IMG/VR virus record: IMGVR_UViG_3300022198_005508
Location: 1 to 39,411 of that record
Origin: a virus
Reading direction: 5' to 3' (one strand)
Length of the DNA stretch: 39,411 bases
Of this stretch, positions 1,728-13,355 are shown piece after piece. Both the position numbers and the translations under genes were made by a program. The notes beneath the pieces are model-generated. The model worked only from the letters and a program-made list of their open reading frames with translations. It was not told where the DNA came from and ran no database searches. Position 1 is the stretch's first letter; every line of letters starts with the position of its first letter.

Positions 1728-1773
1728 GGGCTGTCACATATCACTTGACAGCCCAGCCAATCTGACCTATTGT
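1728..1773 (+). promoter_or_regulatory. Stem-loop with embedded sigma70-like promoter
   Basis: A 9-bp stem (GGGCTGTCA 1728-1736 / TGACAGCCC 1746-1754) contains the -35 box TTGACA (1745-1750) in its right arm. After 17 bp comes TATTGT (1768-1773). It can end the helicase transcript and start the eight-gene operon that follows. Confidence 0.6.
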
Positions 1774-6244: not shown

Positions 6245-6389
6245 ATTATTAACCTTATACTGTATGCCTCCGAGAATTATTAACTGTATACTGTATGCCT
6301 CCGAGTGTGTCAAGTAAATTATTAACCTTATACTGTATGCCTCCGAGTGTGTCAAGTAAATTATTAACCTTATACTGTATGCCTCCGAG
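6245..6389 (+). repeat. Four 30-bp iteron-like direct repeats
   Basis: Core units at 6245-6274, 6276-6305, 6318-6347 and 6360-6389, each ending CTGTATGCCTCCGAG. The last three are spaced by exactly 42 bp with an identical 12-bp linker (TGTGTCAAGTAA), so the spacers are not variable. A related half-site TTCGGAGG occurs at about 6415-6422 and CCTCCGAG again near 6554. No believable gene lies here. Confidence 0.8.
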
Positions 6390-6521
6390 TGTGTCAGAGA
6401 AAGTATCTGAAATGTTCGGAGGTGTAGCAGTCTTGGCCCGCAGTATATCACATCACGCCGAATTTGTCAAGCCCCCCAGCCCAAAAAACCCATAAGGACT
6501 CCAAATCATTCCGAGGCCACC

Positions 6522-6584
6522 AATAAGTATTACTAATATAAGCATTCCAAATCCCTCCGAGTCCATTCATTAGCATTACTAATC
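6522..6584. repeat. Two degenerate copies of the 17-bp palindrome
   Basis: AATAAGTATTACTAATA (6522-6538) and CATTAGCATTACTAATC (6568-6584) match the palindrome GATTAGTATTACTAATC found at gene ends further right. The second lies 9 bp before the -35 of the next promoter. Confidence 0.55.
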
Positions 6585-6593
6585 ACAGACCCC

Positions 6594-6622
6594 TTGACAT
6601 ACCACCCAGGATCAGGTATATT
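6594..6622 (+). promoter_or_regulatory. sigma70-like early promoter
   Basis: TTGACA (6594-6599), 17-bp spacer, TATATT (6617-6622). It is the strongest-looking early promoter here and drives the gene at 6650. Confidence 0.65.
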
Positions 6623-6649
6623 ACATATGTCACTGAGACACCCCAACCC

Positions 6650-6844
6650 ATGAACTACCCAGACGTGGTACAATTCTTCAGCCCATCCATGAAACAAGAT
6701 GAGATGATTGAAGTATTAACAGAAGAACTTTATAGTAATAACTACAAACTAATGGAAATGATTATTGAGGAATATGTAACCTCTATGGATAGTGAACAGT
6801 TGACTCATTTAGAATGTTTTATCAATAACAACCTGACTGATTAG
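6650..6844 (+). CDS. Small acidic hypothetical protein
   Basis: 64 residues, MNYPDVVQFFSPSMKQDEMI..., strongly acidic, predicted all-helical (IEVLTEELYSNNYKLMEMII). It has its own promoter and a leader ending ACCCCAACCC, like other first genes. It resembles in size and charge the acidic genes that follow, especially that at 7818, but I would not call them homologous by eye. Function unknown; tiny acidic early proteins can be inhibitors or DNA mimics. Confidence 0.65.
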   Translation: MNYPDVVQFFSPSMKQDEMIEVLTEELYSNNYKLMEMIIEEYVTSMDSEQLTHLECFINNNLTD

Positions 6845-6861
6845 TAACACTTATGGCTCAG

Positions 6862-6894
6862 GGGGTTGACTCCAGCCCCAATTCAGGCCATACT
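6862..6894 (+). promoter_or_regulatory. Stem-loop with embedded early promoter
   Basis: GGGGTTG (6862-6868) pairs with CAGCCCC (6873-6879), one U-G wobble, loop ACTC. The -35 TTGACT (6866-6871) lies in the left arm and loop; 17 bp later is CATACT (6889-6894). The leader hairpin GTTCA/TGAAC (6901-6915) begins at the predicted start of transcription. Confidence 0.65.
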
Positions 6895-6917
6895 TGAATC
6901 GTTCACCACCTGAACCC

Positions 6918-7193
6918 ATGAAACTCACCACCGAGCAAACTCAAGACCTGCTGACTGCACATTGCTATCGAGTTATTGATAACATGGATGCAGATGATTT
7001 GTTTAGCTATGCTATGCAACTCATGATGCAATCTTTTGACAAGAATCCTGGCCAAGGTGATACAGATGTTGAAGGATTGATTTCTGACATCTGGATTGCA
7101 GAAGATGAGGATGATGATAGTGCTCAAGAGTTTATTGCTGGTGTTCTAGGTAATGAACTCGCAGAGGAGATTGTAAAGACTACTCAATTCTAA
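6918..7193 (+). CDS. Acidic helical protein, copy 1 of a duplicated gene
   Basis: 91 residues, MKLTTEQTQDLLTAHCYRVI..., with a very acidic stretch AEDEDDDS (about 66-73). It is about 60% identical by hand count to the product of 8081-8353. The conserved parts are AHCYRVI, KNPG, the acidic run and the C-terminal helix. It heads a three-gene cassette (6918, 7203, 7337) that is repeated at 8081-8625. The start at 6918 is chosen over an in-frame TTG at 6894 because the latter overlaps the -10 box. No family known to me; its charge pattern would fit a DNA mimic or a binder of basic proteins, which is inference. Confidence 0.7.
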   Translation: MKLTTEQTQDLLTAHCYRVIDNMDADDLFSYAMQLMMQSFDKNPGQGDTDVEGLISDIWIAEDEDDDSAQEFIAGVLGNELAEEIVKTTQF

Positions 7194-7202
7194 TTATTAA
7201 CA

Positions 7203-7331
7203 ATGGAAACTAGCTTCGATTTCCCTGAACTAGAGACTGAATGGCAGGATGACATGTTAATTCCTGCAGATGATGACTATGAAAGTGAACAACACTTTCA
7301 GCAGTTTATTAACTCCAACACTGATTATTGA
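7203..7331 (+). CDS. Tiny acidic protein, copy 1
   Basis: 42 residues, METSFDFPELETEWQDDMLI..., net strongly negative, ending INSNTDY. The homologue at 8357-8491 shares WQDDMLIPADDD and the entire C-terminal FINSNTDY. The DNA of the two copies is identical for 42 nt across the gene end (7302-7343 and 8462-8503). Second gene of the duplicated cassette; starts 9 nt after the first. Function unknown. Confidence 0.65.
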   Translation: METSFDFPELETEWQDDMLIPADDDYESEQHFQQFINSNTDY

Positions 7332-7336
7332 TTATT

Positions 7337-7477
7337 ATGTCTAAAGCACTTCTGGTTTCAATGCTTCGCAAAGGTCAAACTGGCAATGAGATTCTCACGA
7401 TTCTTAACATGCTCGCCAGTGAAGATGAAGACATTAGTAATACTAATGAACCAACTCTAGATGAGATTGAGTTCTGA
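7337..7477 (+). CDS. Small protein, copy 1
   Basis: 46 residues, MSKALLVSMLRKGQTGNEIL..., with a short helical motif (SMLRKGxxGxxILTIL) and an acidic tail ending DEIEF. The copy at 8497-8625 keeps the helical motif and the EIEF end. The motif resembles small cyanophage and cyanobacterial proteins with 'LL..GxnGxqILxILD' that I recall only generally. The stop codon is the first three bases of a 19-bp palindrome. Third gene of the duplicated cassette. Confidence 0.65.
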   Translation: MSKALLVSMLRKGQTGNEILTILNMLASEDEDISNTNEPTLDEIEF

Positions 7478-7493
7478 TTAGTATTACTAATCA
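7475..7493. repeat. 19-bp perfect palindrome over a stop codon
   Basis: TGATTAGTATTACTAATCA: two 9-bp arms around a central T. It begins with the TGA of the gene at 7337. Identical copies at 7739-7757 and 8623-8641. Confidence 0.85.
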
Positions 7494-7495
7494 TT

Positions 7496-7531
7496 CAGGG
7501 GGTTGACAAGACCCTGAAAATCGGTTAAGTT
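7496..7531 (+). promoter_or_regulatory. Stem-loop with embedded early promoter
   Basis: CAGGG (7496-7500) pairs with CCCTG (7512-7516), with TTGACA (7503-7508) in the loop; 17 bp later TAAGTT (7526-7531). The leader hairpin GTTCA/TGAAC (7538-7551) starts 7 nt after the -10. Confidence 0.65.
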
Positions 7532-7558
7532 ACCTTTGTTCACTTCTGAACCACTCCA

Positions 7559-7741
7559 ATGGCTCTGATTCTCGACACCAGCAATCAGTACAACTCTGTT
7601 GCAAACCATGACTACAAAATGACATGGTGTGCATCTTGGGTTGACCATTATAATTTCCTTGCAGGTATTAGCTTTAATACTGAAGCTGAAACTGCAATGT
7701 ATAAAGAAGAGATGATGGAATATCTCTGCTATGATGTCTGA
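7559..7741 (+). CDS. Small hypothetical protein
   Basis: 60 residues, MALILDTSNQYNSVANHDYK..., aromatic-rich (MTWCASWVDHYNFLAG), with a short acidic C-terminus (EEMMEYLCYDV). It stands alone between two promoter cassettes, inserted between the two copies of the duplicated three-gene set. Its TGA opens another 19-bp palindrome. No family recognised. Confidence 0.65.
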   Translation: MALILDTSNQYNSVANHDYKMTWCASWVDHYNFLAGISFNTEAETAMYKEEMMEYLCYDV

Positions 7742-7757
7742 TTAGTATTACTAATCA
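7739..7757. repeat. 19-bp perfect palindrome over a stop codon
   Basis: Second identical copy of TGATTAGTATTACTAATCA, starting at the TGA of the gene at 7559. Confidence 0.85.
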
Positions 7758-7761
7758 ATCG

Positions 7762-7795
7762 GGGGGTTGACACCTCAACCCCCACCTGCTACATT
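7762..7795 (+). promoter_or_regulatory. Stem-loop with embedded early promoter
   Basis: 9-bp stem GGGGGTTGA (7762-7770) / TCAACCCCC (7775-7783), loop CACC. The -35 TTGACA (7767-7772) overlaps the left arm and loop; TACATT (7790-7795) follows after 17 bp. The leader hairpin GTTCA/TGAAC is at 7802-7815. Confidence 0.7.
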
Positions 7796-7817
7796 ATCAA
7801 TGTTCACTACTGAACCC

Positions 7818-8003
7818 ATGACCAACACTTTTGACCGTGATTCGCTGATTGAAACCTATGTTCAGCAGCTTATTGATGGTATGGACATGAAGACTATGGA
7901 GCGTATGGTTTATGATACCTTGATTGACAATCTTTCTTCCTATTCTGATGAAGAACTGATTACAGAGGTTGAAGAATACAATCCCGAACTGTTGGAGGAT
8001 TGA
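7818..8003 (+). CDS. Small acidic helical protein
   Basis: 61 residues, MTNTFDRDSLIETYVQQLID..., all-helical and acidic, ending EEYNPELLED. The ATG at 7818 is chosen because the upstream in-frame TTG at 7767 is the -35 box itself. It has its own promoter cassette. Its TGA opens a variant of the palindrome (8001-8019). Function unknown. Confidence 0.65.
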   Translation: MTNTFDRDSLIETYVQQLIDGMDMKTMERMVYDTLIDNLSSYSDEELITEVEEYNPELLED

Positions 8004-8019
8004 TCAGCATTACTAATCA
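8001..8019. repeat. Variant palindrome over a stop codon
   Basis: TGATCAGCATTACTAATCA, 7 of 9 arm positions paired. It starts at the TGA of the gene at 7818. Confidence 0.7.
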
Positions 8020-8022
8020 ATC

Positions 8023-8057
8023 GGGGGGTTGACAGGGATCAATCCCCATGCCATACT
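8023..8057 (+). promoter_or_regulatory. G/C stem with embedded early promoter
   Basis: The G-run at 8023-8028 and TTGA can pair with TCAATCCCC (one bulge). TTGACA (8029-8034), 17-bp spacer, CATACT (8052-8057). GTTCA (8064-8068) follows at the predicted transcript start, but the TGAAC partner is lost. Confidence 0.6.
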
Positions 8058-8080
8058 TACATCGTTCACCACACAAGGCC

Positions 8081-8353
8081 ATGAACCTCACTTCTGAACA
8101 GGTCAAAGATCTCTGTCAGGCACATTGTTATCGTGTCATTGAACAAATGAACCACGATGATTTAATTAGCTATGCTGTACAGATGATGTACATGTCATTT
8201 GAAAAGAATCCTGGTGATGGTGACATTGATGTTGAAATGTTGGTTTCTGACATCTATGTTGCTGAAGATGAAGATGATGATTCTGTGTATGAATTTGTTT
8301 CTGGCACAGTAGGTGAAGAGATTGCTGAACAAGTTATTAACTATCAATTCTGA
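8081..8353 (+). CDS. Acidic helical protein, copy 2 of a duplicated gene
   Basis: 90 residues, MNLTSEQVKDLCQAHCYRVI..., paralogue of 6918-7193 (about 60% identity by hand count, with AEDEDDDS kept). The ATG at 8081 is preferred to an upstream in-frame ATG at 8048, which lies before the -10 box. It heads the second copy of the three-gene cassette. Retention of the same three genes in the same order suggests that they act together or were copied as a block. Unknown function. Confidence 0.7.
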   Translation: MNLTSEQVKDLCQAHCYRVIEQMNHDDLISYAVQMMYMSFEKNPGDGDIDVEMLVSDIYVAEDEDDDSVYEFVSGTVGEEIAEQVINYQF

Positions 8354-8356
8354 ATC

Positions 8357-8491
8357 ATGGACACTTATGATTTCGCTGAACTTGAGGCTGAAGTATTTGA
8401 CTGGCAGGATGATATGTTGATTCCTGCCGATGATGATGCTGAAGCTGACAAACATTTCAGCCAGTTTATTAACTCCAACACTGATTATTGA
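8357..8491 (+). CDS. Tiny acidic protein, copy 2
   Basis: 44 residues, MDTYDFAELEAEVFDWQDDM..., paralogue of 7203-7331 with three extra residues before WQDDMLIPADDD. It has the same FINSNTDY end and an identical 42-nt DNA stretch across the junction to the next gene. It starts 3 nt after the previous stop. Confidence 0.65.
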   Translation: MDTYDFAELEAEVFDWQDDMLIPADDDAEADKHFSQFINSNTDY

Positions 8492-8496
8492 TTATT

Positions 8497-8625
8497 ATGT
8501 CTACAGAAGTTCTGATTTCGATGCTTCGCAAGGGAAAGAATGGTGAGCAAATTCTCACTATTCTCGACATGATTACTGGTGAGGATGATACTGCAGAGCC
8601 CACATCTGAAGAGATTGAGTTCTGA
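8497..8625 (+). CDS. Small protein, copy 2
   Basis: 42 residues, MSTEVLISMLRKGKNGEQIL..., paralogue of 7337-7477, shortened in the acidic tail but ending in the same EIEF. Its TGA opens the third perfect copy of the 19-bp palindrome. Last gene of the second cassette. Confidence 0.65.
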   Translation: MSTEVLISMLRKGKNGEQILTILDMITGEDDTAEPTSEEIEF

Positions 8626-8641
8626 TTAGTATTACTAATCA
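8623..8641. repeat. 19-bp perfect palindrome over a stop codon
   Basis: Third identical copy of TGATTAGTATTACTAATCA, starting at the TGA of the gene at 8497. Confidence 0.85.
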
Positions 8642-8646
8642 TTCAA

Positions 8647-8679
8647 GGGGTTGACAAACTCAGCCCCATCCTGTAAATT
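8647..8679 (+). promoter_or_regulatory. Stem-loop with embedded early promoter
   Basis: GGGGTTGA (8647-8654) pairs with TCAGCCCC (8660-8667), one wobble. TTGACA (8651-8656), 17-bp spacer, TAAATT (8674-8679). Confidence 0.65.
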
Positions 8680-8706
8680 ATTAACCGTACACCTGCTGAA
8701 CACATC

Positions 8707-8970
8707 ATGGCAACTGCAATCGCTCCTGTACATCGTCAGTTTACTAAAGAGCAATCTAGTGCTATTCATTCTATTACTATCCCTGGTGATAGTAATGATG
8801 TTTTTATTAACTATCATAGCAATGCAGATAAAGTTTACAACTTCACTGCATCAGATAGTTACATTGAATTCCTAAGTGATCTTCTCACTAATGATGAGAT
8901 CCTGAAGAATGTTAGCATTGGTTCTACTATTGCTGATGGGCGACGGACTGAAGAACTGAAGTCTGTCTGA
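8707..8970 (+). CDS. Small protein, possibly KTSC-domain-like
   Basis: 87 residues. After a short lead, SSAIHSI starts a pattern of two strands (DVFINYHS, KVYNFTA) and a helix (YIEFLSDLLTNDEIL). This recalls the KTSC domain found in phage and bacterial proteins, in which Ser-Ala-Ile, a Tyr-x-Phe strand and a helix are typical; the usual C-terminal part is not convincing. KTSC domains are linked by genome context to nucleic-acid processing, but no activity is firmly known. It is a single-gene cassette ended by a G6/C6 stem-loop with a short T-run. Confidence 0.6.
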   Translation: MATAIAPVHRQFTKEQSSAIHSITIPGDSNDVFINYHSNADKVYNFTASDSYIEFLSDLLTNDEILKNVSIGSTIADGRRTEELKSV

Positions 8971-8980
8971 TAGAATCTAT

Positions 8981-9014
8981 GGGGGGTGAGATTCCCCCCT
9001 TTTCATTACATTAT
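8981..9014 (+). promoter_or_regulatory. Intrinsic terminator with overlapping weak promoter
   Basis: GGGGGG (8981-8986) / CCCCCC (8994-8999), then TTTT (9000-9003). A weaker promoter overlaps: GTGAGA (8986-8991), 17-bp spacer, CATTAT (9009-9014). Confidence 0.55.
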
Positions 9015-9285: not shown

Positions 9286-9305
9286 TTATTTCGGATTGTG
9301 AACAT

Positions 9306-9339
9306 GGGGGCATCCAAGCCCCCAGCCATGCTGTAGGAT
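9306..9339 (+). promoter_or_regulatory. Stem-loop and TAGGAT -10 box
   Basis: GGGGGC (9306-9311) / GCCCCC (9318-9323), then TAGGAT (9334-9339) with no clear -35. The same motif GATTGTGAACA precedes this cassette and the one at 10302. Confidence 0.4.
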
Positions 9340-9364
9340 TGATGAGTCAACCGCAAACGACACC

Positions 9365-9529
9365 GTGACCAGCCAAAACCCCTACGTTCAGCAGCTGCAA
9401 GCCCAGGGCAAGGAGCCCAGCAAGGCTGCTGCCCCTAAGCGGACCTTCCCTTGCACCATCGGTGCTCGGACCTTCCACACCGAGGAGCAGTATCAGGAAG
9501 CCCTGCACGAGTTTCTGAACGGGTACTGA
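9365..9529 (+). CDS. Small GC-rich-gene protein (GTG start)
   Basis: 54 residues from a GTG at 9365: MTSQNPYVQQLQAQGKEPSK..., with an Ala/Lys/Pro linker and a C-terminal part FPCTIGARTFHTEEQYQEAL. No in-frame ATG exists. Codon choice (CTG, GCC, AAC, CAG) switches sharply here to a GC-rich style unlike the genes to the left. Its TGA opens another palindrome variant (9527-9545). Family not named, but the compact strand/helix end looks like a conserved phage mini-domain. Confidence 0.6.
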   Translation: MTSQNPYVQQLQAQGKEPSKAAAPKRTFPCTIGARTFHTEEQYQEALHEFLNGY

Positions 9530-9567
9530 TAAGCAACGCTAATCAGTCGGGGGCTCCACGAGCCCCC
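9527..9567 (+). promoter_or_regulatory. Palindrome variant plus strong stem-loop
   Basis: TGATAAGCAACGCTAATCA (9527-9545) starts at the stop codon, as in the AT-richer cassettes. It is followed by an 8-bp stem GGGGGCTC (9549-9556) / GAGCCCCC (9560-9567). TAGACT (9577-9582) is the likely -10 for the next gene; GTTCA follows at 9590. Confidence 0.55.
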
Positions 9568-9604
9568 ACCAGCTGCTAGACTTTTCTCAGTTCACACCCA
9601 AGCC

Positions 9605-10273
9605 ATGAACTTCGCCCTCACCGCCATCAGCAGCAACGCTAAGACTGGCCCGATCCCCACCAGCACTAGCAGCCGTGAGACCTGCCCCAGCACCTGCCCC
9701 TTTTACGACAAAGGGTGCTACGCTAAGTCTGGCCCCCAGAACATTCACTGGAAAAAGGTTACTGAAGGTGAGCGTGGTGTAAACTTTCAAGAGTTTACAA
9801 CTGCAATCCGTAAGCTTCAGCGAGGCCAACTCTGGCGGCACAATGTATCTGGTGATCTGCCACACATTCTGGGTGACATTAACGCACCTATGGTGGAAGC
9901 TCTCGCTGATGCAAACCGTGGCCGCAAAGGTTACACCTACACCCACCACATTCTGAATGATCATAACCTAAAGGTCATTCAGGAAGCTAACAGCAAAGGC
10001 TTCACGATTAACGCTTCCACTGAAGACGTAGAGGTGGCTGATGCAGTGATGACAGAGCACGGTATTCCTGCTGTTGCTGTTGTCAAGTCTGACAAAACAG
10101 ATAGATTCTACAAAACAGAATCAGGTCGCAAAGTTGTCACCTGCCCCGCTACAATTCATGAGAATGTAACTTGTGCAACCTGTAAGCTTTGTGCAAAGTC
10201 TGACCGAGACTTTATCATTGCATTCCCTGCACATGGCAATGCAAAGAAAACAGTGAACGAGATTGTCGCCTAA
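9605..10273 (+). CDS. Cysteine-rich phage protein (DUF7227-like)
   Basis: 222 residues beginning MNFALTAISSNAKTGPIPTS. Two cysteine clusters stand out: CPSTCPFYDKGCYA (about 28-41) and CPATIH...CATCKLC near the C-terminus, so it probably binds zinc or an iron-sulphur cluster. Between them is GQLWRHNVSGDLP and a GYTYTHH segment. This pattern is one I associate with a phage/plasmid family of unknown function, often labelled DUF7227; the label is from memory. The first ~130 nt have GC-rich codons while the rest is closer to the phage average. It has its own cassette promoter and leader. Confidence 0.75.
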   Translation: MNFALTAISSNAKTGPIPTSTSSRETCPSTCPFYDKGCYAKSGPQNIHWKKVTEGERGVNFQEFTTAIRKLQRGQLWRHNVSGDLPHILGDINAPMVEALADANRGRKGYTYTHHILNDHNLKVIQEANSKGFTINASTEDVEVADAVMTEHGIPAVAVVKSDKTDRFYKTESGRKVVTCPATIHENVTCATCKLCAKSDRDFIIAFPAHGNAKKTVNEIVA

Positions 10274-10301
10274 AGTATAATTATTTCGGATTGTGAACAA
10301 T

Positions 10302-10343
10302 CGGGTCTGGGGCATCGCCAGCCCCCACCCGATGCTGTAGAAT
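10302..10343 (+). promoter_or_regulatory. Stem-loop with embedded promoter
   Basis: Outer CGGGT (10302-10306) / ACCCG (10327-10331) and inner GGGGC (10309-10313) / GCCCC (10321-10325). A -35-like TCGCCA (10315-10320) is in the loop; 17 bp later TAGAAT (10338-10343). A second hairpin, GCGAGG (10352-10357) / CCTCGC (10365-10370), lies at the predicted transcript 5' end. Confidence 0.5.
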
Positions 10344-10387
10344 ACGATCAAGCGAGGCAAGGGACCTCGCACAACCCACCCGAGACA

Positions 10388-10702
10388 ATGACCAGCTCTG
10401 ACCGTCTGACCCGTACCAGCATCCCCACCGTGGTGGCTGTTGCCATTGCCAAGGTCACTCTGCTGAAACCCCACGTTATCGGCAGGCACCGTGCACAGTG
10501 GCTGTTCGATCTGGCCACCAGTGAGACTGCTCTCAAGGAGGAGCGCAAGCTGGGCCGTAAGGCACTGCAGATCGCTGCCGATGCTGCTGGCCGCAGCGTG
10601 ATCACCCTGGCTGATGGTCGCACCATCGGCAACCGAGTCTACAGCAAGGCCAGCAACCGCAGGCTAGTTCGCTGGAGCCAGGATCGCCCTAGCGCAGTCT
10701 GA
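10388..10702 (+). CDS. Basic GC-rich-gene hypothetical protein
   Basis: 104 residues, MTSSDRLTRTSIPTVVAVAI..., Ala/Arg-rich, with a helical middle (AQWLFDLATSETALKEERKL) and a C-terminal basic stretch (KASNRRLVRWSQDRPSAV). Net positive. No family recognised; the charge and helix content would fit a nucleic-acid binder. Single-gene cassette, followed at once by a strong intrinsic terminator. GC-rich codons throughout. Confidence 0.6.
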   Translation: MTSSDRLTRTSIPTVVAVAIAKVTLLKPHVIGRHRAQWLFDLATSETALKEERKLGRKALQIAADAAGRSVITLADGRTIGNRVYSKASNRRLVRWSQDRPSAV

Positions 10703-10716
10703 CAAGTGGCACAAGG

Positions 10717-10741
10717 GGGCTTGACAGCAAGCCCTTTTTTT
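10717..10741 (+). terminator. Intrinsic terminator
   Basis: GGGCTTG (10717-10723) / CAAGCCC (10728-10734), loop ACAG, followed by seven T. TTGACA (10721-10726) lies in the loop as in the promoter cassettes, but no -10 follows at 16-18 bp, so this copy seems to act as a terminator only. Confidence 0.8.
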
Positions 10742-10948
10742 GTCTTTTTTTATTAACTATTTTATGGCAGGGGGCGTGGCGACCATTTCATCATCAGGCT
10801 TACCCCAGCCCTCTCTCGGTTGTGAAACTATCCTAGCACGGCACCAGCCCACTAGGACAGCTCCAAACCAGTTCAGCCACTGGCACAAGACCCCTAGACT
10901 CTGGCCAGGATCTGTGCGATTCTATAAAGGTCAAACAAAGGCAACCCC
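10742..10948 (+). other. Gene-free stretch with a promoter-like end
   Basis: About 200 bp without a believable gene. The only notable signal is TATAAA (10923-10928), preceded at 16 bp by a weak -35 (CTGGCC, 10901-10906), which would serve the gene at 10949. Confidence 0.4.
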
Positions 10949-11098
10949 ATGAATCCCTTTCTCACTGATTCACAAGTGGAAGAACTGAATACAATGGGTT
11001 ACATTGAATTGACTGAAGAATTATTAAGCGTTATATTTAATACTACCAATGTAGTTTGGGAGAATGATATTCTGGTAGACAAGAATTATTATCAATAA
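10949..11098 (+). CDS. Tiny AT-rich acidic protein
   Basis: 49 residues, MNPFLTDSQVEELNTMGYIE..., acidic, helix then strands (VVWENDILVDKNYYQ). It is an AT-rich gene set among GC-rich neighbours, which argues that single genes in this block have been exchanged independently. The SQVEELNxxGYIELTEELL segment looks like a short helix-turn-helix-sized unit, but I cannot support DNA binding. Function unknown. Confidence 0.55.
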   Translation: MNPFLTDSQVEELNTMGYIELTEELLSVIFNTTNVVWENDILVDKNYYQ

Positions 11099-11131
11099 TA
11101 CAAAATTATTAACCGTAATAGGTAATACTTA

Positions 11132-11246
11132 ACCATACATTCCCCCATACACATAGGGGCACAATGTATGATTAAAGCACACACCTAGGCCAGTCCAGAG
11201 ACTGGCCACCAGCTGGCCCAGACCCCACCAGCCCACCTGCTATACT
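11132..11246 (+). promoter_or_regulatory. Two hairpins and a promoter
   Basis: CATACATT and CCCC (from about 11132) pair with GGGG and AATGTATG (to about 11170), and GGCCAGTC (11188-11195) pairs with GACTGGCC (11200-11207), loop CAGA. Then CAGACC (11219-11224), 16-bp spacer, TATACT (11241-11246). GTTCA (11254-11258) marks the leader. Confidence 0.5.
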
Positions 11247-11268
11247 GATCTCAGTTCAGCCAAAGGCC

Positions 11269-11478
11269 ATGATCGCCAACCACGCCACCGCACAAGACTT
11301 CGCCAACTGGGAAGCCAAGGCCAAGGCCATGACCATGGCTGAGCTGCTATGGTCGGCACAGGATGCTCGCAAGGCCGAACAGGCGATGCGAGGCTGGAAC
11401 CCCATCGCTGAGGGTCGCTACAGCGATGAGGCAAGCACCTATGGCGATGAGATCCGCCGCCGCAGGGCCAGAGCCTGA
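11269..11478 (+). CDS. Small helical phage/cyanobacterial-type protein
   Basis: 69 residues, MIANHATAQDFANWEAKAKA..., two helices: MTMAELLWSAQDARKAEQAM, then GRYSDEASTYGDEIRRRRAR. This order (AEL.. D...A, then a Gly-x-Tyr-x-Asp turn and EIRRR) is shared with small proteins I recall from phages of many hosts, function unknown. GC-rich codons. Single-gene cassette with leader ending CCAAAGGCC before the ATG, closely like the leader at 9605. Confidence 0.65.
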   Translation: MIANHATAQDFANWEAKAKAMTMAELLWSAQDARKAEQAMRGWNPIAEGRYSDEASTYGDEIRRRRARA

Positions 11479-11494
11479 GCTGGCCCAGGGCCAC

Positions 11495-11531
11495 CTGGCC
11501 CACTGGCACACTCCAAACCCCAGTGGGCCAG
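11495..11531. terminator. 12-bp stem-loop without U-run
   Basis: CTGGCCCACTGG (11495-11506) / CCAGTGGGCCAG (11520-11531), 13-nt loop, 16 bp after the gene at 11269. Likely transcription-end or RNA-protecting hairpin. Confidence 0.55.
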
Positions 11532-11580
11532 CTCCAAACCCGTCACAGTGTGACAATCCAAAAAGCTGCACAAGCCCCTG

Positions 11581-11610
11581 TTGCCAGCTGCCGCTTGGGC
11601 CTGCTAGTGT
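11581..11610 (+). promoter_or_regulatory. sigma70-like promoter
   Basis: TTGCCA (11581-11586), 18-bp spacer, TAGTGT (11605-11610), 25 bp before the ATG at 11636. Confidence 0.45.
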
Positions 11611-11635
11611 TGATCACGTACACCGCACTACAGCG

Positions 11636-11839
11636 ATGCAACCCACCGTCACCCTGACCCTGACCGCTTGGGAGGCCGAGCAGCTGCGCCGCATGGCCTT
11701 CGACTCCAGTTCCTACTGGTTCGGCATCCTGCAGGAGGCATTCAACGACCCTGCCAACACCAGGGATCGGGAAGCCATTGAGCGCCTGTGGCGTCAAAGC
11801 GGGGCCATGGCCCAGCGCCTGGGTGAGCTGATCGGCTGA
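11636..11839 (+). CDS. Small GC-rich-gene hypothetical protein
   Basis: 67 residues, MQPTVTLTLTAWEAEQLRRM..., one strand then helices (WEAEQLRRMAF, YWFGILQEAF, DREAIERLWRQSGAMAQRLG). The frame is open further upstream to 11363, but that part overlaps the previous gene and the hairpin, so the internal ATG at 11636 is chosen. No family recognised. Confidence 0.6.
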   Translation: MQPTVTLTLTAWEAEQLRRMAFDSSSYWFGILQEAFNDPANTRDREAIERLWRQSGAMAQRLGELIG

Positions 11840-11847
11840 TCAACCAC

Positions 11848-11910
11848 GGGGCCACCATCTGGCCCCACCATGATGTACACTTAATCTCAAGCGGGCCGAC
11901 AGGAGCCCGC
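11848..11910 (+). promoter_or_regulatory. Stem-loop, -10 box and 5' leader hairpin
   Basis: GGGGCCA (11848-11854) / TGGCCCC (11860-11866); TACACT (11876-11881) as -10, no clear -35. A leader hairpin GCGGGC (11891-11896) / GCCCGC (11905-11910) starts near the predicted transcript 5' end. Confidence 0.45.
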
Positions 11911-11926
11911 ACACCCCCCAGAGACA

Positions 11927-12220
11927 ATGGCAAACGACATCGCCACCCTCGCCCTCGCCTACAAGCAGGCCACTGATGCCCTGAAGCTCGCCGAGCAGGC
12001 CAAAGCCGATGCCAGCCTGGCCTTGGTGGAAGCCATGCAGGCTGCCGAACAGGAGCGGGTTGAAACCCCTGCAGGCAAGGTCAGCCTGTGCCAGGGTCGC
12101 CGCACCGTTAAGGTCACTTGCAAAGCTTTGCAGGCCGAGATCAAGCTCCTACAGGAGCGGGCCGTCAGGACAGGCCGAGCCGTTGAAGCGGTGGGCAAAC
12201 CCTACGTCATGATCCGCTGA
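11927..12220 (+). CDS. Ala-rich coiled-coil protein
   Basis: 97 residues, MANDIATLALAYKQATDALK..., an Ala/Lys/Glu-rich helix over residues 5-45 with heptad-like spacing, then a short strand pair (VETPAGKVSLCQGRRTVKVT) and another helix. The layout of long helix plus 'GRRTVKV' strand resembles the C-terminal half of phage Gp157-like proteins, but I would not assign it. GC-rich codons; leader ends CAGAGACAATG, almost identical to that of the gene at 10388. Confidence 0.6.
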   Translation: MANDIATLALAYKQATDALKLAEQAKADASLALVEAMQAAEQERVETPAGKVSLCQGRRTVKVTCKALQAEIKLLQERAVRTGRAVEAVGKPYVMIR

Positions 12221-12228
12221 TCAACCAT

Positions 12229-12267
12229 GGGGCAAGCTTGACGGCTTGCCCCTTTCTGCCCCATAAT
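12229..12267 (+). promoter_or_regulatory. Stem-loop with -35 exactly in the loop
   Basis: 9-bp stem GGGGCAAGC (12229-12237) / GCTTGCCCC (12244-12252); the six-base loop is TTGACG (12238-12243), the -35 box. After 18 bp comes CATAAT (12262-12267). The clearest promoter/stem-loop of the GC-rich block. Confidence 0.65.
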
Positions 12268-12293
12268 GGGGAAGTCCAAACGACACCCGACCC

Positions 12294-12479
12294 ATGGCCA
12301 CGATCAACCCCATCGAAGCCGACTTCATCACCCATTGCATCGAGGTGTGGTGTAACGAGCTGCCGCAGATCGCTGGGCGTCCCGTGATGTTCACCACACA
12401 GGGCGAGCAGCCTGAGCAGGTGCTGCTGACTCATGATCAGATCGAAGCTCTGTACCTGCGGCTGCAGGCCCTGAAGTGA
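12294..12479 (+). CDS. Small GC-rich-gene hypothetical protein
   Basis: 61 residues, MATINPIEADFITHCIEVWC..., one helix, a strand/turn part (GRPVMFTTQGEQPEQVLL) and a final helix (HDQIEALYLRLQALK). No family recognised. Own promoter at 12229-12267; the next gene follows after a UACG-loop hairpin. Confidence 0.6.
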   Translation: MATINPIEADFITHCIEVWCNELPQIAGRPVMFTTQGEQPEQVLLTHDQIEALYLRLQALK

Positions 12480-12486
12480 GCCCTAC

Positions 12487-12506
12487 GGGGAGCCTACGGG
12501 CTCCCC
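12487..12506 (+). terminator. Stem-loop with TACG tetraloop
   Basis: Perfect 8-bp stem GGGGAGCC (12487-12494) / GGCTCCCC (12499-12506), loop TACG (UNCG-type, very stable in RNA). It lies between the genes at 12294 and 12539; no long U-run. Confidence 0.6.
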
Positions 12507-12538
12507 TTCCTATCCACAACCACAACCACACACCGAGC

Positions 12539-12727
12539 ATGTTTGAGACCCTCAGAGAGGCCACCATGGCCCGTGCAAACGATGCTGGCTGCATCCCATA
12601 CCAAGACGCCCTAACCGAGGCCATCAGCCACGGTGCAGGCCAGGAGTTTATTGCCCTGTATGGGTCAGCCATCGCCTGGCCTATGGGTGTGGATGCTGGC
12701 GAGTGGCTGGCCTGGCTCGGTTACTGA
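12539..12727 (+). CDS. Small GC-rich-gene hypothetical protein
   Basis: 62 residues, MFETLREATMARANDAGCIP..., helical with an aromatic C-terminus (IAWPMGVDAGEWLAWLGY). The ATG at 12539 is chosen over a GTG at 12476, which would read through the hairpin. Last GC-rich gene before the sharp drop in GC near 12840. Followed by a stem GGGGGAG (12735-12741) / CTCCCCC (12747-12753). Function unknown. Confidence 0.6.
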   Translation: MFETLREATMARANDAGCIPYQDALTEAISHGAGQEFIALYGSAIAWPMGVDAGEWLAWLGY

Positions 12728-12756
12728 ATGTAACGGGGGAGCCAGTCTCCCCCATT

Positions 12757-12811
12757 GATCAGCGATACTGATCGATCAGCAGTGCTGATCAGTGGGCAGA
12801 GGCAGTATAAA
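12757..12811 (+). promoter_or_regulatory. Tandem GC variants of the palindrome next to a -10 box
   Basis: GATCAGCGATACTGATC (12757-12773) directly abuts GATCAGCAGTGCTGATC (12774-12790), the latter a perfect 17-bp palindrome with central G. Fifteen bp later is TATAAA (12806-12811). The layout is what an operator pair overlapping a promoter would look like. Confidence 0.55.
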
Positions 12812-12899: not shown

Positions 12900-13355
12900 A
12901 TGATTAAAAATAAAAAAATTTTGCCCACAAAATTTGACGGCTACTATGTTTCTGAAGACGGAAAAATTTTTACTGAGTGGCATTTAGTAAATAATAATGG
13001 AAGATTTGGTTCAATCAGAGGAGAGCTGCGAGAAGTAAAATCTCATCCAAGAGGAGGATGTAATCCAAATGACAGATATTTAGCTGTAAATATTTCATTA
13101 AAAAATGACCAAGGAAAAACTATTAAGCAAATCAAATATTACTCACATAGACTCATAGCAGAGACTTTTATAGAAAACCCACAAAATTTGAAAGAAGTAG
13201 ACCATATTGATGGAAACAAACAAAATAACTCAACAACAAATCTGAGGTGGGTAGATAGAAAAGAAAACCTAAAATGGATGATAGGAAATACTTTTGGAAA
13301 AAATTTTCGACAAAAAAAATCCGAGAACCTTGTAGATTCTCGGAGAAAAAAATAA
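12900..13355 (+). CDS. HNH homing endonuclease (NUMOD4-like + HNH)
   Basis: 151 residues from the ATG at 12900; an in-frame GTG at 12843 is possible. The N-terminal PTKFDGYYVSEDGKIF (about 9-25) matches the NUMOD4 pattern of phage homing endonucleases. The HNH core follows: HRLIAETFIENP (from about residue 83), then VDHIDGNKQNN...NLRWV, with the DH and N residues of the metal site. It nicks or cuts DNA and spreads by repair; here it appears free-standing. It is AT-rich and begins just after the GC-rich block, a sign of insertion. Its 3' end contains the terminator of the opposing gene. Confidence 0.85.
   Translation: MIKNKKILPTKFDGYYVSEDGKIFTEWHLVNNNGRFGSIRGELREVKSHPRGGCNPNDRYLAVNISLKNDQGKTIKQIKYYSHRLIAETFIENPQNLKEVDHIDGNKQNNSTTNLRWVDRKENLKWMIGNTFGKNFRQKKSENLVDSRRKK
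13312..13343 (-). terminator. Minus-strand intrinsic terminator inside the HNH gene
   Basis: Read on the minus strand: CCGAGAA (13343-13337) / TTCTCGG (13327-13321), then ATTTTTTTTG (13320 downward). It lies 24 bp beyond the end of the minus-strand kinase gene and within the last codons of the HNH gene. Confidence 0.75.

Follow-up and report, generated by a model that had tools for sequence, protein, structure and literature searches.

Promoter early stem-loops (PeSLs) of T4-type phages, attributed to Arbiol et al. 2010 and Comeau et al. 2014, are reportedly composite elements that combine a promoter with a stem-loop and at which genes are said to be exchanged. In Campylobacter group II phages, modules are bounded by repeats and short repeats were proposed to drive modular shuffling, according to the description of phage CP21 (PMC4546147). 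For the cyanomyovirus S-PM2, the density of PeSLs was considered too low for shuffling (PMC4503421). Here we analyse a stretch of 39,411 nucleotides (the window), which is a single IMG/VR virus record (IMGVR_UViG_3300022198_005508, labelled G000), and in particular five promoter-hairpin elements, termed joints, that lie among tiny genes at positions 6862-8680. We regard these joints as probable standardized boundaries that separate exchangeable cassettes of early genes in a T4-like cyanophage, and give this reading a probability of about 0.8.

Anatomy of the joints

The first-pass annotation had described five plus-strand units in this region, each composed of a G-run, TTGAC(A/T), a C-run, a 17-bp spacer and a -10 box, and all five are present as claimed (Table 1). 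The -35 box is TTGACT in joint 1 and TTGACA in the other four, and the -10 box follows at exactly 17 bp in every case, within the 16-18 bp expected of a putative host sigma-70-type promoter such as PeSLs carry. The stem that encloses the -35 box has 7-9 bp and a dG of -10 to -17 kcal/mol. In 2000 dinucleotide shuffles of positions 6401-9000, a check proposed together with the annotation, the mean number of units was 0.0015 against the five observed; shuffling of the whole window gave 0.017 expected units vs. 6 observed.

Several details of the annotation had to be corrected. The stem does enclose the -35 box, but TTGA is itself partly paired (GGGGGTTGA/TCAACCCCC), so that the box sits in stem plus loop. 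The unit at 7496-7531 exists, but its stem is TTCAGGG/CCCTGAA. The genes between units are small, yet they do not stand singly, as cassettes carry one to three of them. From the two extra copies proposed outside the region, the one at 12229-12267 has its TTGACG loop in a stem but an 18-bp spacer, whereas the one at 1728-1773 retains TTGACA-17-TATTGT but has another geometry and was set aside. A further component had been overlooked: a 19-bp palindrome, with the consensus TGATTAGTATTACTAATCA or a variant of it, is located 8-9 bp upstream of each focal -35 box. The leaders 5′ of the genes that follow joints (e.g., 7800-7817) repeatedly contain GTTCAC-TAC-TGAACCC ahead of the ATG; this forms a small inverted repeat close to where the transcript is expected to start.

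Table 1. Joints, genes and related elements of the window, and gene order between the anchor genes F12 and F13 (dash outside brackets, joint; brackets, cassette or operon).
Feature	Position	Strand	Description
Extra copy, other geometry	1728..1773	+	stem GGGCTGTCA/TGACAGCCC; TTGACA in right arm; 17 bp; TATTGT
Promoter with palindrome, no G/C hairpin	6567..6622	+	TCATTAGCATTACTAATCA 8 bp before TTGACA-17-TATATT
Left anchor gene F12	6650..6844	+	present in all relatives compared
Joint 1	6838..6894	+	degenerate palindrome 6838-6856; hairpin GGGGTTG/CAGCCCC 6862-6879
Joint 1 promoter		+	-35 TTGACT 6866-6871; 17 bp; -10 CATACT 6889-6894
Cassette F26-F01-F02, three tiny genes	6918..7477	+	6918-7193, 7203-7331, 7337-7477
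Joint 2	7475..7531	+	palindrome TGATTAGTATTACTAATCA 7475-7493; hairpin TTCAGGG/CCCTGAA 7494-7518
Joint 2 promoter		+	-35 TTGACA 7503-7508; 17 bp; weak -10 TAAGTT 7526-7531
Single-gene cassette F30	7559..7741	+	92-95% identical to L138, L139, L141 copies
Joint 3	7739..7795	+	palindrome 7739-7757; hairpin GGGGGTTGA/TCAACCCCC 7762-7783
Joint 3 promoter		+	-35 TTGACA 7767-7772; 17 bp; -10 TACATT 7790-7795
Single-gene cassette F34	7818..8003	+	phrog_1352, unknown function; 97% identical to L139 copy
Joint 4	8001..8057	+	palindrome variant TGATCAGCATTACTAATCA 8001-8019; hairpin GGGGGTTGA/TCAATCCCC 8024-8047
Joint 4 promoter		+	-35 TTGACA 8029-8034; 17 bp; -10 CATACT 8052-8057
Second F26-F01-F02 cassette	8081..8625	+	87-97% identical to L141
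Joint 5	8623..8679	+	palindrome 8623-8641; hairpin GGGGTTGA/TCAGCCCC 8647-8667
Joint 5 promoter		+	-35 TTGACA 8651-8656; 17 bp; -10 TAAATT 8674-8679
Right anchor gene F13	8707..8970	+	phrog_4357, unknown function
Terminator-like stem after F13	8981-8999	+	GGGGGG/CCCCCC-TTTT
Related joint without -35	9527..9582	+	palindrome TGATAAGCAACGCTAATCA; hairpin GGGGGCTC/GAGCCCCC; -10 TAGACT in joint register
True intrinsic terminator	10717..10741	+	GGGCTTG-ACAG-CAAGCCC-TTTTTTT; contains TTGACA, no -10 at 17 bp
Extra copy	12229..12267	+	stem GGGGCAAGC/GCTTGCCCC, loop TTGACG, 18 bp to CATAAT
Window order			F12-[F26 F01 F02]-[F30]-[F34]-[F26 F01 F02]-F13
L135 order			F12-[F19]-[F26 F01 F02]-F13
L137 order			F12-[orphan]-[F19]-[F34-like F01 F02]-F13
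L138 order			F12-[F30]-[F19]-[F01 F02]-F13
L139 order			F12-[F30]-[F34]-[F19]-[F01 F02]-F13
L140 order			F12-[orphan]-[F01 F02]-F13
L141 order			F12-[F30]-[F26 F01 F02]-F13
L011 order			F12-[F01 F02]-F13

Cassette order in related genomes

Relatives of 27-172 kb were found by a scan for the palindrome and by searches with two of the tiny proteins, and gene families (F numbers) were built by BLASTP. One record, L134, matches the window at 99.99% identity over 16 kb and so did not qualify as a relative; L136, which is identical to L135 in the shuffling zone, was excluded from the counts. Eight distinct genomes were thus compared (the window, L135, L137, L138, L139, L140, L141 and L011). An Rfam search of the window gave zero matches, a search for near DNA matches among 50,697 phage records found none, and a distant search with the joint as query yielded weak chance matches only. 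The window encodes the baseplate proteins gp25, gp6 and gp8 of T4-like phages, its gp6 is ~34% identical to those of marine cyanophages, and a 172-kb relative carries psbA. Judged by this gene content, the phage belongs to the T4 superfamily, as expected of PeSL carriers, and is a T4-like cyanophage lineage distant from the cultured ones.

The gene-order comparison that the first-pass annotation had called for showed that cassettes change order among the eight genomes with their boundaries at joints. The zone between the anchors F12 and F13 holds 1-4 cassettes in variable order; the next gene after F30 is F34, F19 or F26, and six different genes occur directly after F12. The family F26 matches phrog_1352 (function unknown). 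Computationally, a joint was located at all cassette boundaries (29/29) and at none of the 14 intra-operon junctions. As in a PeSL, the element marks the places at which genes of a plastic region have been exchanged, inserted or deleted.

Identity breakpoints and a hybrid joint

At the units, identity to the window shifts from about 40-75% to 90-100% and back. For L141, sliding identity rises from 40 to 90% at ~7490, a cassette is lost at 7740-8010, and identity drops from 94 to 58% at ~8650; the breaks are at 7490 and 8000-8030 in L139 and at 7490 and 7770 in L138. The same pattern is seen per gene, both in L139 (F12 69%, F30 95%, F34 97%, F01 79%, F13 76%) and in L141 (F12 69%, F30 93%, F26 97%, F02 94%, F13 74%). 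The flanking anchors are 69-77% identical where F30 reaches 92-95% and F34 97%, and genes adjoining F30 in L138, L139 and L141 are 69-81% identical, except F34 (L139) and F26-F01-F02 (L141), which were also exchanged.

The window's two F26-F01-F02 cassettes share ~74% identity with each other. A recent local tandem duplication was considered and rejected: copy 2 is 87-97% like L141, yet the two copies are just 74% alike. As the anchors flanking the L141 match are moreover only 69-74% identical, the most plausible reading is that the cassettes are two alleles acquired separately.

L138 and L139 are sister genomes: around the zone most of their genes share 94-100% identity, and they differ by one F34 cassette. 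In place of two L139 joints, L138 has a single one, whose left side is that of one L139 joint (...CTAATCAA|TC...) and whose right side is that of the other (TTGACA|CCAGCC...), which places the crossover within the 13-bp core TCAGGGGGTTGAC. Across joints, the core is uniform; the right half tracks the downstream gene (similarity 0.68-0.72 vs. 0.49-0.52) and the left half tracks the upstream gene weakly. Gene-order switching, identity breakpoints and the hybrid joint together make modular shuffling at these composite promoter/stem-loop joints well supported. The dense PeSL-like system proposed earlier stands in this respect; its second claim, termination of the upstream transcript, is unsupported at these joints, as a U-tract was found in 0/28 of them.

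The elements could also be ordinary intergenic promoters with no special role in exchange, their stems being leftovers of homology and the order of cassettes a product of random recombination and selection. They are indeed homologous copies, and breaks between genes are favoured in any phage. We nevertheless consider this very unlikely in view of the L138/L139 crossover inside the core, the presence of joints at every boundary, the uniform core between diverged flanks and an at least 8-fold excess of pairing over non-pairing elements in IMG/VR (at least 120 vs. 14).

Hairpin pairing and putative termination

For the 28 distinct joints, the mean dG is -13.3 vs. -8.4 with shuffled spacers, and the hairpin was better than spacer shuffles at p<=0.05 in 22 of the 28, so that stem-loop and promoter are combined in one short element as in PeSLs. 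The right arm, (A)GCCCCC or CCCTGA, lies at a varied distance from the -35 box, leaving loops of about 4-11, while the -10 box remains at 16-18 bp. Either type pairs with the common left side TCAGGGGGTT; that varied right arms still pair fits with selection for pairing, with the caution that the copies are related.

An intrinsic terminator needs a GC-rich hairpin followed by a U-tract. Both were found at 8981-8999 and 10717-10741; the focal joints have the hairpin, and the lack of a U-tract in all 28 leaves termination at these sites unproven. A terminator scan gave no match at the five focal sites and its clearest match at 8981, after F13. Further downstream, the GC-rich stretch 9300-12760 contains tiny genes parted by G-run/C-run hairpins that are followed by TAnnnT at 4-11 nt (e.g., 9305, 9549, 11848) and mostly do not contain TTGACA.

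It is conceivable, although at somewhat less than even odds, that each joint works as a stop-start element, in which the hairpin terminates the upstream gene and the released polymerase slides and re-initiates at the overlapping promoter. The row of tiny genes would then be read as separate short messages, which is compatible with a role in cassette exchange. RNA polymerase (RNAP) sliding and re-initiation after intrinsic termination was shown in vitro (PMC6978380) and would suit such an element; moreover, elements of like design do carry U-tracts in relatives and other cyanophages (G001, P-HM1), and the position after the stem is T-rich in 47 of 103 IMG/VR promoters, among the matches listed, vs. 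0/12 controls. The absence of U-tracts in the focal family and the negative terminator scan at the five sites speak against it.

The strong stems without U-tract, and the start of the palindrome at the stop codon in several joints, would also suit a hairpin that stabilizes the 3′ end of the upstream gene's RNA or serves as a site for its processing, with the promoter there merely because intergenic space is short. This is unlikely, as the register of the -35 box to the stem and the 16-18 bp to the -10 box are constant family-wide and a palindrome promoter without hairpin exists at 6567-6622.

The palindrome upstream of the -35 box

Given the 17-bp spacer, the palindrome is centred near -54, and in joints 2 to 5 it opens with the TGA stop codon of the gene before it. 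It occurs in the same register before a hairpin-less promoter (6594) and before a hairpin without -35 box (9549). In the 172-kb relative, palindromes are confined to the early zone and, except for variant copies, oriented with promoters; a MITE-like mobile repeat was rejected, since such a distribution makes free mobility unlikely.

Perfect copies fold with a dG of about -6.5 and inner-arm pairing is kept in some variants, so an RNA hairpin at the stop codon was weighed. We find this doubtful: pairing is broken without compensation in several variants (TGATCAGCATTACTAATCA, TGATAAGCAACCCTAATCA), the copy at 6567 is away from any stop codon, and the 8-9 bp to the -35 position are constant even where the hairpin or the -35 box is missing. 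The uncompensated changes and the fixed phase rather point to the palindrome as a probable DNA-binding site.

An overlapping pair of palindromes from this family (TGATCAGCGATACTGATC, GATCAGCAGTGCTGATC) also precedes a TATAAA at 12755-12792, upstream of an HNH endonuclease gene (12900-13355).

Some promoters near the zone point leftward. A tandem repeat at 6245-6396 (about 3 copies of a 42-bp unit and, in addition, a 31-bp version) reads TTGACA-17-TATAAG on the minus strand and is expanded in the window record only, with 5 CCTCCGAG vs. 0-1 in relatives. At 6442-6470, a good minus-strand promoter, TTGACA-17-TATACT, faces genes that all lie on the plus strand and may mark the start of an antisense or small RNA; similar leftward promoters are present in L140 and L011.

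Promoters with the -35 box in a hairpin in other phages

The pairing pattern GGGGTTGACA-N3-CCCC-N10-TATANT was found in at least 120 IMG/VR stretches, the reversed pairing CCCC/GGGG in 32 and the non-pairing GGGG/GGGG in 14. Among the matches listed, pairing elements had on average 1.9 further outward pairs vs. 0.4 for non-pairing ones, and 47/103 distinct G4-TTGACA-C4 promoters were T-rich after the stem vs. none of the 12 non-pairing controls; other TTGACA promoters were T-rich at that place in 53 of 445 cases. As pairing counts, outward pairing and T-richness all exceed the controls, these sequence statistics indicate that the overlap of a hairpin/terminator with the -35 box of the following promoter is a genuine design, common among environmental phages. 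U-tracts do accompany such elements elsewhere in these genomes, as exemplified by G001 (GGAGGGC-TTGACA-GCCCTCC-TTTTTT-N4-TATACT), and likewise in P-HM1 (GAGGGTGT-TTG-ACACCCTC-TTTTTTT-TATACT); P-HM1 and DSL-LC03 are the clear examples among named phages. At TTGACA promoters in general (dG<=-6), there was no hairpin excess in G001 or P-HM1 and a weak one elsewhere, so that the design marks a subset of promoters. In T4, a strong hairpin surrounds the -10 box in 4/26 promoters and the -35 box in none.

Related arrangements were also noted. At G001:69832 and G002:74375, a very strong reversed hairpin (C-run left, G-run right) has TTGACA as its loop and TACTAT 17 bp on, and is conserved between these two relatives. 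In the freshwater cyanophages DSL-LC03 (18041) and S-CRM01 (177089), the -10 box (TAGAAT) is in a hairpin loop followed by a T-run, a -10-in-terminator version.

Tentatively, and with less confidence than an even chance, this may be a second widespread phage stop-start design, in which placing the -35 box in the hairpin would leave room for the terminator arm and U-tract within the 17-bp spacer. It would have become a universal joint in this cyanophage lineage: any recombinant of two joints would regenerate hairpin and promoter, so that blocks could be swapped with regulation intact on both sides.

Proposed role of the joints

In the cassette-boundary reading that we prefer, the cassette downstream of a joint would be served by a host-type sigma-70 promoter. 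This promoter would be part of a G-run/C-run hairpin that spans the 3′ end of the cassette upstream, and the palindrome, a probable binding site, stands before it at fixed phase. From the sequence we infer promoter activity, use of host sigma-70 and early timing; the hairpin may end or shield upstream transcripts. Joints have complementary flanks and a common core (TCAGGGGGTTGAC, slightly varied), so that any two of them could undergo homologous recombination and thereby swap, add or delete a whole cassette. The hybrid joint would again have palindrome, hairpin, -35 and -10, with its own -10 box and leader staying with the downstream gene and its own 3′ end with the upstream gene, and should remain functional because of the shared core and pairing logic.

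Several observations weigh against this reading. The L138/L139 hybrid is the sole case that fixes a crossover inside the core, and intergenic swapping is expected anyway, as breaks within genes are harmful. The hairpin statistics are inflated because homologous copies are not independent, the U-tract is missing from the distinct joints, and the hairpin excess in the whole 172-kb relative is modest (5/31 promoters vs. 6% expected). The focal -10 boxes are mediocre, with 3-4 of 6 consensus matches.

The joints suggest how large uncultured cyanophages could trade tiny early genes of unknown function with control intact, and one such crossover is located to a 13-bp core. The joint sequence could also be used to search metagenomes for such cassettes. 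Should the hairpin prove to terminate transcription, many environmental phages would possess, in the -35-in-loop design, a compact stop-start element.

Comparison with known systems

The elements of P-HM1, DSL-LC03 and many IMG/VR contigs, in which an intrinsic terminator overlaps a promoter, resemble the joints in having TTGACA in or beside the loop, a 16-18 bp spacer and the -10 box directly downstream; they often have a U-tract, whereas the focal joints do not. With CP21 the joints have in common short shared repeat units with a proposed role in modular shuffling in T4-like phages, but the available part of that description (PMC4546147) presents multi-unit repeat regions and does not describe them as promoters, while here single joints are found. 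S-PM2 likewise combines a host-like early promoter and stem-loops in a cyanomyovirus (PMC4503421); in contrast to it, the joints are dense and coincide with exchange boundaries.

The likeness to PeSLs, as these are reported, lies in the union of promoter and stem-loop, in the setting among small early genes of a hyperplastic region and in the exchange of genes at the element. The position of the stem differs: the joints have a -35-centred stem and a palindrome at fixed distance, whereas promoter-overlapping hairpins of T4, which presumably correspond to the published PeSLs, surround the -10 box (4/26 -10-centred, 0/26 -35-centred). Considering the PeSL-like working and T4-like lineage on one side, and the different stem position and putative termination on the other, we classify the joints, from their sequence, as a cyanophage variant of the PeSL kind.

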